Positions 1,976-10,865 of a stretch of DNA of 31,957 nt are shown here, in pieces. Within the stretch, counting starts at the first letter, position 1, and each line of letters begins with the position of its first letter. The position numbers and the translations under genes are program-made. This DNA comes from a virus. Where the stretch lies: positions 1-31,957 of the IMG/VR virus record IMGVR_UViG_3300047510_001116. The stretch is one strand, 5' to 3'. A model generated the notes under the pieces. The model was not told the DNA's origin, did not search any database, and saw only the letters and a program-made list of their open reading frames with translations.

Positions 1976-1983
1976 TATAAATA
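1976..1983 (+). promoter_or_regulatory. T4-type late promoter (plus)
   Basis: Exact TATAAATA on the plus strand. It is the only perfect late element before the plus-strand structural operon (2221-4789) and would give that operon a leader of roughly 230 bases. The leader contains competing hairpins at 2107-2149. Confidence 0.75.
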
Positions 1984-2106
1984 AACGTGGAGGAGAAATC
2001 CTTCAGTTAGAGATCAAGATGTATTACTAAAAGATTCCAGTAATGGCTCTTTCATTAATGCTTCAACTCTAATTGAATTACGATTCAATTTGAAATAGTA
2101 ATAATC

Positions 2107-2149
2107 CCAGACGATTCACTCGTGTCGTCTGTGGCACCGATTCGTCTGG
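2107..2149 (+). repeat. Competing inverted repeats in the late-operon leader
   Basis: CCAGACGA (2107-2114) can pair with TCGTCTGG (2142-2149, 8 bp) or, in part, with TCGTCT (2125-2130, 6 bp). The two pairings exclude each other. There is no T-tract after either, so this is not a simple terminator. It lies about 60 bases before the ribosome-binding site of the first structural gene. Confidence 0.4.
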
Positions 2150-2220
2150 CATTATGTCAGGGACGGATTGGATCGTTTTCTCCTCTCCAAACAACATTCT
2201 TTTCCTTAAGGAGAAAACAA

Positions 2221-3015
2221 ATGGCAGATCAAGTTTATGTTCCAGATCCATGGTCAATGCTCGCAGGACAGCATTCAGACATTCGTAGAGAAGGTTCTGT
2301 AGAGCGTGGCGAGATTCGTTACGACGTTGCTACTCGTGCCGCTGACAACCGTTATGCTAACGCTGTTGGTCAAGGCGAAATCAAGTATGCTATCGCTGAA
2401 CATTCCGAATCAACCAACCGTGACATTCTAACCACTGGTTTTAATACTTCAGTCAAGGTAGATGAAGCTGCTGATAAGATTCAGCAAAGAGCTGCTGACT
2501 TCTATATTGCTTCTCAAGCAAGAGATTTTGATAACTCTCGTGACCTTGCTGCTCTCAGAGCATCTCAAGACCTTGCAGCTCAGAAACTCAGCACAGAGAT
2601 TCTTCTTGCTACCGAGAAGACTGCTACTGCTCAGGCTCTTGAGTCAGCAAGACTTGGTGCTGCTGTAGCACTCGGACAATCACAGATCAGCAAGGAAATT
2701 GCTGAGAGCAAGTATGACCTCAGCAAGCAGGTTGCTTATGAGAATGAGAAGACTCGTGATCTCATCAATTCACTCAAGAATGATGAACTCAATAGACTTC
2801 TCATTGAGCGCAACACTGATATCAATAGCCTCCGTGGAGATTATTGGGGTGTTAGAGATGGTCTGTTCAACAGCCAATTCGCTGCACTATCTTCACAAGT
2901 TAACTCTCAGTTAAACTCACTTAACAGTCAGATTGCTGAGACCCGTCAGGGCATGGTTAACTTCGGAACCATGGCTGGTGTAGGTCAGTCTTCAACCAGC
3001 AACGCTGTACGCTGA
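2221..3015 (+). CDS. Coiled-coil virion structural protein (putative)
   Basis: A 264-residue protein beginning MADQVYVPDPWSMLAGQ. I chose this start because AAGGAG (2208-2213) lies 7 bases upstream; a longer in-frame extension to 2122 lacks a ribosome-binding site and overlaps leader hairpins. After about 25 residues the sequence is almost wholly helical, rich in Ala, Gln, Ser and Glu with heptad-like spacing (residues 60-240), typical of long trimeric or dimeric coiled coils in phage fibres and whiskers. No cysteines, signal peptide or enzyme motif are seen. It heads the plus-strand operon under a perfect late promoter and precedes the collagen-like gene, so a neck, whisker or fibre component is likely but not proven. 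Confidence 0.75.
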   Translation: MADQVYVPDPWSMLAGQHSDIRREGSVERGEIRYDVATRAADNRYANAVGQGEIKYAIAEHSESTNRDILTTGFNTSVKVDEAADKIQQRAADFYIASQARDFDNSRDLAALRASQDLAAQKLSTEILLATEKTATAQALESARLGAAVALGQSQISKEIAESKYDLSKQVAYENEKTRDLINSLKNDELNRLLIERNTDINSLRGDYWGVRDGLFNSQFAALSSQVNSQLNSLNSQIAETRQGMVNFGTMAGVGQSSTSNAVR

Positions 3016-3071
3016 TTTAGTTCAGTAGTTATTAAGGGGGAGATGACTCCCCCTTTTAGAGGAGAATAACT

Positions 3072-3644
3072 ATGGACTCAGCAGAAAGAAGACTCATTGA
3101 TTTATATAATCTTCTCGCACAGTATCAGAGAAGTAATGACCCGAATCTAATGGAAAACATTCAGTCTGTTCGTGCCGAAATTACACAGATGCTGAATGCC
3201 CGTGCTGGTGGAAACGATAACATCAACATCGTCATAGACGGTGGCGAGTGCCCAGATGAGTGTCCCCCAGGACCGCCTGGACCTCCAGGAGAACAAGGGC
3301 CACCAGGGCCGCAGGGCCCACCAGGAGAACCAGGAGAATGCACCTGCAGGTGCAAAAGCATCCTGGTTTCTGAAGATTATACTGCTACTTGCGATGATTA
3401 CTACATCGGTGTCAATAGTGACGGACCTGTTACTATTACATTACCTGAAGACTGCACCGACTGTTGTGAGATTATCGTGAAAGCAGAAATGGGTCCACCA
3501 TTGGGCAACAGAAAAATTACAGTCACTACATCAAACGCTGCTTTGATTGATGGTGAAGGTGATTACATTATCACCACACCATATGGAGCAGTCAACTTGA
3601 TTTGTCGTGGACTTGATTGGTATATTATCTCAACAAAACTATGA
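3072..3644 (+). CDS. Collagen-like structural protein with cysteine-flanked triple-helix segment
   Basis: A 190-residue protein with a good ribosome-binding site (AGAGGAGAA before ATG). Residues 1-45 form a helical, probably trimerising head. Residues 67-90 carry eight uninterrupted Gly-X-Y triplets (GPPGPPGEQGPP and so on), the signature of a collagen triple helix. The collagen segment is bracketed by cysteines: ECPDEC before it and CTCRC after it, an arrangement resembling the disulfide knots that register collagen chains. The C-terminal 95 residues look beta-rich (VTITLPEDCTDCCEIIVKAE) with further cysteines, as in tail-fibre tip domains. Collagen-like repeats are known in phage fibres. 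It overlaps the papain-like peptidase gene by four bases (ATGA), so the two are probably translated together. Confidence 0.85.
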   Translation: MDSAERRLIDLYNLLAQYQRSNDPNLMENIQSVRAEITQMLNARAGGNDNINIVIDGGECPDECPPGPPGPPGEQGPPGPQGPPGEPGECTCRCKSILVSEDYTATCDDYYIGVNSDGPVTITLPEDCTDCCEIIVKAEMGPPLGNRKITVTTSNAALIDGEGDYIITTPYGAVNLICRGLDWYIISTKL

Positions 3645-4423
3645 ACTTTAATATTAAACCATCTCTACCTGACATAAGAGATCACATTTATAGAAGTGAC
3701 AGCACAGAAGTTCTCAGGGAATCTGTAGATCTTCGTGAGTGGGATACAATAGTTGAATCACAATATGATCTGGGCAGTTGTGCTGCAAATGCGCTCACAA
3801 ATGCATACGAACTGTGCGTGAAACGCAACTACCCAGAACATTTTACTCATCTCAGTAGACTGTTTATCTATTATAACACCCGGCTTGAACATGGTGATAT
3901 TGAAAAAGATACTGGAATGTTTTTAAGAGATGGTCTTAAATCATTATCAAAGTATGGAGTGTGTTCTGAATTATTATGGCCATATGATCAAGAAAAATTT
4001 AATGATACACCATCTGATGAATGCTATGAGGATGCTAAGAAAAGAAAAATCATTAAGTATGAAAAATTAATTAGCACTTATTATATCACTCAAGTTTTGA
4101 ATAACAACAAACCAGTTGTATTTGGTATGGAAATTTACGAAAGTTTTATGGAACTAAATGATCGTATTTCTACTGTAAGTTTCCCTTCCAGAAAAGAGAA
4201 AAGTCTTGGAGGACATGGGATGTGTATGGTCGGATATAATTTAAAGGAAAGACTGTTTTTAGCAAAGAATAGTTTTGGTCCTACTTGGGGAAACAACGGT
4301 TACTGTTGGATTCCTTTTGATTACATTAATCAGGAAGGATACGACATTTGGACTTTTGATATACCCAACCAATTAGGAGAATCAAATGTATTATACGAGG
4401 CACTACTACCCATATTATCATAG
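3641..4423 (+). CDS. Papain-like (C1A) cysteine peptidase
   Basis: A 260-residue protein; the ATG overlaps the collagen-gene stop. The catalytic elements of the papain family are in order: oxyanion Gln41 and nucleophile Cys47 in SQYDLGSCAANALTNAYE, His192 in LGGHGMCMVGYN, and Asn210 in AKNSFGPTWGNNGYCWIP, which also shows the family GxxWGxxGY motif. There is no signal peptide and only a short segment before the catalytic domain, so no classical inhibitory propeptide. The substrate is unknown. Its late promoter and position between a collagen-like protein and Tyr-rich proteins suggest that it processes virion proteins or travels with the particle. The family assignment is firm; the role is inferred. 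Confidence 0.9.
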   Translation: MNFNIKPSLPDIRDHIYRSDSTEVLRESVDLREWDTIVESQYDLGSCAANALTNAYELCVKRNYPEHFTHLSRLFIYYNTRLEHGDIEKDTGMFLRDGLKSLSKYGVCSELLWPYDQEKFNDTPSDECYEDAKKRKIIKYEKLISTYYITQVLNNNKPVVFGMEIYESFMELNDRISTVSFPSRKEKSLGGHGMCMVGYNLKERLFLAKNSFGPTWGNNGYCWIPFDYINQEGYDIWTFDIPNQLGESNVLYEALLPILS

Positions 4424-4523
4424 GAGATATTATGACTACTATGACTATTACCGCTATGGGTGTCATCCTTATTATGATAGATATTGCCCTTATTACTCAT
4501 ATTATCCTTTCTATCCTTACTAA
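4386..4523 (+). CDS. Tyrosine-rich small protein (22 Tyr of 45 residues)
   Basis: Starts inside the end of the peptidase gene in another frame, with AGGAGA (4375-4380) six bases before ATG. The frame encodes 45 residues, almost half tyrosine, mostly as YY pairs separated by Arg, His, Pro, Asp or Gly (for example YYHRRYYDYYDYYRYG), with two cysteines. The next gene begins in the same way (MYYRYQPYPYYRRYY) behind a similar ribosome-binding sequence, which argues strongly that this frame is translated rather than the hydrophobic 31-codon frame starting at 4432. No known phage family comes to mind. Such proteins could self-associate through stacking or dityrosine links; that is inference. Confidence 0.7.
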   Translation: MYYTRHYYPYYHRRYYDYYDYYRYGCHPYYDRYCPYYSYYPFYPY

Positions 4524-4537
4524 GTAGGAGATTCAAA

Positions 4538-4789
4538 ATGTATTACCGTTATCAGCCATATCCATACTACAGGAGATACTACAGTTTAGATCCTTATTAT
4601 TATAGAAGGTACTACAACCCATACTACAATTATCAACAGAATATAGTTGATAGTCAAGTATCAGACATAGACCAAAGTATTAATAACTTTGGGGATATGA
4701 CTGATGTGATTCAAGATGCTGATGTTTTTCAAGTAATGTCACCAGAACCAGAAGAACCTCAAGAACAATCTCGCCTGATTCTACCATAA
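4538..4789 (+). CDS. Protein with tyrosine-rich N-terminus (16 Tyr in the first 32 residues)
   Basis: An 83-residue protein whose start follows TAGGAGA by a standard distance. Residues 1-32 are half tyrosine, in YY/YYY clusters interspersed with Arg, Pro and Asn. Residues 33-83 are quite different: acidic and soluble (SQVSDIDQSINNFGDMTDV, then a Pro/Glu-rich tail ending SRLILP). The N-terminal part is related in pattern to the 45-residue protein encoded just upstream, suggesting duplication of a Tyr-rich module. It is the last gene of the plus-strand late operon and is followed directly by a bidirectional terminator. Function unknown; probably virion-associated by context. Confidence 0.75.
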   Translation: MYYRYQPYPYYRRYYSLDPYYYRRYYNPYYNYQQNIVDSQVSDIDQSINNFGDMTDVIQDADVFQVMSPEPEEPQEQSRLILP

Positions 4790-4790
4790 T

Positions 4791-4818
4791 AAAAAAGAGT
4801 GGCACTAGACCACTCTTT
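4791..4818. terminator. Bidirectional intrinsic terminator
   Basis: A 9-bp perfect stem AAAGAGTGG (4794-4802) / CCACTCTTT (4810-4818) with a 7-base loop, A-rich on the left and T-rich on the right. It separates the plus-strand late operon (ending 4789) from the minus-strand gene ending at 4827 and can stop transcription from both sides. Confidence 0.85.
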
Positions 4819-4826
4819 CTTTTTAT

Positions 4827-10673: not shown

Positions 10674-10865
10674 CACACGGAAGGGGTTTTGTGGTTATCC
10701 ACCACCAAGTTTTTAACTAGAACCTGGAAACTAGGCGGGAGTTATCCCATCCGCACCAGGGTAAGATTTAAGTCATTCCAAGACTCGGGATTGAAGGGGA
10801 ACCTTCACCGACCAGGGTTTTTTACGTGTCTCCATCACGGGCATTAAGGGGATTGACTCCACCAT

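Follow-up and report, generated by a model that had tools for sequence, protein, structure and literature searches.

The window, that is, the whole stretch of DNA analysed here, is a 31,957-base IMG/VR virus record of a cyanomyovirus. Its gene content (psbA, psbD, nrdAB-type genes and twelve tRNAs) is that of such phages, and its closest DNA matches were S-CREM1, S-CAM3 and S-PM2. Set among window genes that lie mostly on the minus strand, an operon of five genes on the plus strand encodes a repeat or stalk protein (called here the coil protein), a collagen-like protein, a papain-type peptidase and two Tyr-rich proteins, TyrA and TyrB (Table 1). No known tail or head gene adjoins this module within the window. 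A preliminary description had reported four overlapping or abutting genes at positions 3072-4789, read from a late promoter, and all the features that it gave for these genes were present. The late promoter box was also found; however, the range reported leaves out the beginning of the operon, which lies further 5′ and comprises this promoter, a conserved leader RNA and the fifth gene, coding for the coil protein.

Table 1. Features of the operon and its leader (positions in the window)
Feature	Position	Strand	Evidence or remark
T4-type late promoter box TATAAATA, operon start	1976..1983	+	6 boxes in the window against 1.4 expected (shuffles)
5′ part of the leader RNA: a hairpin whose loop is GNRA-like, followed by almost invariant GATGTATTACTAAAAGATTCC..CTTTCATTAATGCTTCA, closed by TTAGAG/CTCTAA	1986..2076	+	
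3′ domain of the leader RNA: long stem-loop that includes two internal helices (three stacked helices)	2067..2183	+	Covariation
Coil gene, 264-aa repeat/stalk protein with C-terminal motif SQIAETRQGMVNFGTMAGVGQSSTSNAVR	2221..3015	+	Kept in 51 IMG/VR loci; dN/dS 0.13
Terminator-like hairpin GGGGGAG-ATGA-CTCCCCC followed by TTTT, between coil and collagen-like genes	3036..3057	+	Hairpin at the same place in every aligned relative
Collagen-like gene, 190 aa: helix-like N-terminal part, 8 Gly-X-Y, Cys-rich XD-like beta domain (predicted)	3072..3644	+	C-domain model; Foldseek/VIA
Peptidase gene, xylellain-type C1A, 260 aa	3641..4423	+	PF00112; 3ois; 4-nt overlap with collagen-like gene
TyrA gene, 45 aa, 49% Tyr	4386..4523	+	38 nt shared with the peptidase gene (3′ end), in a different frame
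TyrB gene, 83 aa, 19% Tyr, C-terminal motif in common with coil	4538..4789	+	hhalign, motif HMM
Intrinsic terminator ending the operon	4794..4824	+	Stem of 9 pairs and T-rich tail

Co-transcription of the genes from a single late promoter had been proposed as well. The promoter required for this exists, but the coil gene is parted from the collagen-like gene by a terminator-like hairpin, which was not picked up by a generic terminator scan because such a scan demands five T residues. The stem sequence of this hairpin varies between relatives, while the hairpin itself is retained in all those that were aligned. Since no late promoter box occurs between the hairpin and the collagen-like gene, the genes located 3′ of the coil gene are probably expressed by read-through, and the coil protein would thus be the most abundant product of the operon.

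The leader extends over approximately 235 nucleotides between the promoter box and the coil gene. In the 16 related leaders, without exception, a box xATAAATA or CTAAATA was located 41-47 nucleotides upstream of the conserved, almost invariant GTATTACT. The 5′ part of the leader has a mean column identity of 84% (10 leaders); covariation within it was restricted to the 5′ hairpin, the central stretch GATGTATTACTAAAAGATTCC being too conserved for testing. The structure of the 3′ domain is well supported by comparison: its 34 pairs were formed in 95.8% of the cells, compared with 34-47% for slid versions, and both-sided changes occurred at 13 pairs against 5.4 in shuffles. A covariance model of the leader gave matches exclusively 5′ of the coil gene in records related to the window, and none in the distant phages carrying the module; reverse-strand matches involved the same stems as the forward ones and were taken as a palindromic shadow. 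No Rfam family matched the leader at its gathering score; the candidate freshwater-2 reached 24.6 of the 49.9 bits needed, far below the cut-off and with the window alone, and was discarded. A reading frame across the leader (VLLKDSSNGSFINAS...) was also rejected, as stops or frameshifts break it in relatives (for example L046 and L028). Candidate roles for this RNA are autoregulation by a product of the operon, mRNA stability and ligand sensing.

The distant phages devoid of the leader (L071, L072, L074-L078, L080, L084 and L085) carry, just 5′ of the module, a gene whose C-terminus resembles by eye a LuxR-type helix-turn-helix (LTPRQRQI...SNKVIAKxLNISESTVKLH...RNRTQLAVF), possibly an alternative regulator. 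PhotoRC and wcaG RNAs are already known from cyanophages, and a structured element placed upstream of a phage operon of structural type would be of comparable interest. A wcaG RNA (RF01761, 67.5 bits) was itself detected amid the tRNA genes of the window (10691-10788, minus strand), and a glutamine riboswitch and a PhotoRC-II RNA were found in related phages at L029:261-312 (minus strand) and L020:10320-10414 (minus strand).

The conservation of the module was then evaluated from IMG/VR scans performed with the peptidase, collagen-like and coil proteins, which yielded the loci L001-L114 and revealed the module in dozens of uncultured phages. Gene sets were counted at the 33 distinct coil loci followed by more than 3 kb of downstream sequence. 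A collagen-like ORF followed the coil gene at every one of them (33/33), and a small aromatic-rich ORF, by a lax criterion, at 29/33; a TyrB-type ORF bearing the C-terminal motif was present at 23 loci, an extra beta-domain protein at 24 and the peptidase at 22. The order was coil, collagen, (beta), peptidase, TyrA, TyrB in near relatives, and coil, collagen, Tyr-rich, beta, peptidase in distant ones, while the contigs L054 and L056 retained the coil and collagen-like genes alone. Median pairwise dN/dS values were 0.13 for coil, collagen-like and TyrB, 0.155 for the peptidase and 0.05 for TyrA; the latter value, obtained across 8 phages, is less clean because TyrA and the peptidase gene share some sequence, read in different frames. 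The low dN/dS values, together with a gene order recurring in dozens of contigs, indicate that the gene set is beyond chance, and the conserved synteny that had been suggested as a check was thereby found. We also looked for the peptidase or the Tyr-rich genes apart from the collagen-like gene, an arrangement that would contradict their linkage, and found none in the module peptidase clade: all 17 members occur together with a collagen-like gene except L012/L107, where the contig is cut off.

The gp23 major capsid gene was identified (E 1.8e-81 or better) in 5 of the 7 module records longer than 120 kb, the window itself being a 32-kb fragment, and psbA/psbD-type genes in 7 of 32 records. These data indicate that the module belongs to T4-like phages and is not restricted to phages bearing photosynthesis genes. 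A ferritin/Dps-like gene (PF00210, E 5e-22) was observed on the same strand 3′ of the module at L037:4542-4976 and L038:7591-8025. In a collection of isolated phages, megablast with the operon and tblastn with the coil and collagen-like proteins gave no match, near records being possibly omitted from what was covered; tblastn of the extra beta protein returned a single weak match.

The strongest evidence that the coil and Tyr-rich proteins act in one structure comes from a common C-terminal motif of around 30 residues. The C-terminus of the coil protein, NSQxxETRQGMVNFGTMAGVGQSSTSNxVR, is retained where the remainder of the protein is 31-45% identical, and its counterpart in TyrB-type proteins, at the corresponding position, reads SQxxxxxQxxxNFGxMxxVxQ. 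A regular expression for the motif retrieved coil and TyrB-type ORFs only, over all loci, and had no hit in 18,759 shuffled frames. Alignment of the coil and TyrB motif profiles by hhalign gave a probability of 97.3% and a score of 46.5, whereas 100 column shuffles scored no higher than 13.7; since the rows were chosen with the same regular expression, the values err somewhat on the optimistic side. Furthermore, when 20 whole records, the largest of 400 kb, were scanned with a motif HMM, each gave one or two hits, and the hits that could be assigned corresponded to coil and TyrB-type genes. The simplest meaning of such a tag would be a docking or processing signal, which provides a concrete hypothesis that can be tested. 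In near relatives, the coil protein measures 264, 275 or 286 residues, i.e. it varies by steps of 11. We do not claim a coiled coil, as its hydrophobic periodicity was not above that of shuffles.

The collagen-like protein contains eight Gly-X-Y triplets at residues 66-89, bracketed, as had been described, by cysteine clusters (C60/C64 before and C90/C92/C94 after). The uninterrupted run comprises 6 to 24 triplets in relatives and the flanking cysteines are conserved. The Pfam Collagen model scored 21.5 bits on this protein, under its cut-off of 27.2, and the PHROG matches were tail proteins. The C-terminal domain was modeled by AlphaFold2 with a pLDDT of 89.7. Comparison of this model gave VIA Z values of 12.3 for CBA120 TSP4, 12.3 for an Acinetobacter tailspike, 11.8 for KP1 gp10, 10.4 for the Pa223 capsid spike, 10.3 for T4 gp9 and 9.4 for T4 gp10, and approximately 100 of its 104 residues could be aligned to gp9, gp10 and TSP4 (Foldseek/VIA-align), so that an XD-like fold is predicted. 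In tail proteins, XD domains serve for trimer assembly or as spacers (PMC8825819). A related domain is also present in the extra beta proteins of relatives, with 33-40% identity to the C-domain encoded in the window. The predicted tail-type fold favors a virion appendage, but does not fix its place on the virion because the fold is common to baseplate, tailspike and capsid-spike proteins.

Taken together, these observations lead us to propose, with a probability of roughly 60%, that the operon makes a late, trimeric accessory fiber of a T4-like virion, the peptidase being optional. This reading is favored by the 33/33 linkage of coil and collagen-like genes, the private motif, the XD-like fold predicted for the C-domain and the PHROG tail matches, as well as by the T4-type late promoter, the gp23 gene in 5/7 records and the lack of any export signal, searched for as a hydrophobic N-terminal stretch, in the five operon proteins. 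We infer the trimerization, the virion location, the adhesion and the proteolysis from these features, and the parts could be assigned as follows. The coil protein would be the stalk, its length being set by the 11-residue repeats. The collagen-like protein would form a short triple-helical rod, whose terminal gp9/gp10-type (XD) domain would dock on other trimers, and the extra beta-domain protein of most relatives may be a further adaptor or tip. The C-terminal motif common to TyrB and the coil protein would bring both to one docking site, and the aromatic-rich segments would offer a sticky surface to which cells, sugars or particles bind. As an optional partner, the peptidase may trim proteins of the operon or host surface proteins. 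The variable number of Gly-X-Y triplets and the variable length of the coil protein fit an adjustable fiber. If the product is indeed a virion appendage, it would represent a conserved device for host contact or particle contact in T4-like aquatic phages.

The place of the peptidase can be viewed in several ways. The protein matches PF00112 (E 1.7e-13) and Xylella fastidiosa xylellain (3ois; sequence E 1.8e-37, model TM 0.86), and Q41, C47, H192 and N210 are invariant in 17 phage sequences. From its sequence and its predicted papain fold it is a xylellain-type C1A enzyme, and the complete catalytic set Cys47, His192 and Asn210 was found where it had been placed. The module peptidases form a phage-only clade (support 99/93), separate from enzymes of many bacterial phyla that are 38-43% identical. 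We hold it possible, at well under even odds, that the enzyme is an auxiliary one which degrades host surface proteins, phycobilisomes or defense proteins and merely lies on the same late transcript. The independent uptake of xylellain-type enzymes by several phage groups (myo- and siphoviruses) and giant-virus groups (PMC10380794) and the location of distant phage relatives near lysis-type genes (L111, L112) are in line with this proposal. However, the close clade was seen inside the module only, and PADLOC returned no defense-system match, so that a defense function was rejected.

Cleavage of the coil protein and/or TyrB near the common motif by a fiber maturation enzyme, which would release or lock the assembly, appears unlikely. 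Such a role would account for the motif in two operon proteins and its strong conservation in coil proteins that are otherwise only 31-45% identical, for the 4-nt gene overlap, and for the strict linkage of the peptidase clade to the module. Yet several module phages without peptidase keep the coil motif (L054, L056, L066, L070, L073, L077-079, L081, L083, L084), and no peptidase was found anywhere in G019, a 400-kb record that contains the other module genes. Moreover, in IMGVR_UViG_3300042514_000757 (L011/L021/L052/L106), the peptidase gene at L021:6257-6847 bears two in-frame deletions that removed the region of the catalytic Cys while His and Asn were retained. The remainder of this Cys-less version has stayed under constraint, though a slightly weaker one (dN/dS 0.20 vs 0.14), and the protein is a possible pseudoenzyme. 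The absences and the Cys-less version together show that the peptidase is not present in every copy of the module and is not catalytic in every case, at variance with the initial view of a processing enzyme if this is taken as universally required. Both the auxiliary and the maturation roles are compatible with the accessory fiber. In contrast, the extracellular matrix or adhesive kit first imagined, in which released collagen-like fibers and cross-linked Tyr-rich proteins would be processed by the peptidase, is improbable: the Tyr content of TyrA and TyrB (49% and 19%) and the presence of collagen repeats and a peptidase predicted to be active in one operon speak for it, but the lack of export signals, the tail-assembly-type fold predicted for the collagen-like C-domain and the dispensable, once Cys-less, peptidase do not bear it out.

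Collagen-like phage fibers, XD domains and phage peptidases of the xylellain type are already known separately. A module combining them with a private C-terminal tag and a leader RNA was absent from the literature and phage isolates searched, with incomplete coverage, and no relevant paper turned up in a literature search for phage collagen together with virion proteins that are papain-like or Tyr-rich. The curli-like operon of pelagimyophages (PMC7029224), for which no papain or peptidase genes are mentioned, is a different kit. Only tentatively, at well under even odds, do we suggest a new accessory fiber system for T4-like phages of aquatic habitats. In it, a repeat stalk and a Tyr-rich adhesive protein, otherwise unrelated, would dock at a single site through a common tag, an optional papain-type peptidase would act at the tag, and a new leader RNA behind the late promoter would control synthesis.

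Several known systems share parts of this arrangement. In S-CREM1 (Kyanoviridae), a 1112-aa collagen-like protein, SCREM1_22 (L115:8584-11922), is encoded in the psbA neighborhood, near where the window phage has the module, but its annotated neighbors include no coil, Tyr-rich or peptidase gene. Xylellain has the same catalytic residues as the phage peptidase, whose match begins at xylellain residue 35, so that the N-terminal stretch of xylellain is missing. The XD domains of T4 gp9/gp10 and CBA120 TSP4 have the same fold as that predicted for the collagen-like C-domain; however, the identity is only 15-18%, and here the domain is Cys-rich and caps a collagen rod. SPP1 gp12, the collagen-like trimeric capsid spike or head fiber, is likewise small, late and accessory, with a short collagen-like segment; it is a predicted trimer with a proposed function in cell-surface recognition (PMC7602432). 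The likeness to SPP1 gp12 is one of description, and the protein analyzed here differs from it by its predicted XD-like C-domain and by its place in a five-gene T4-like module.
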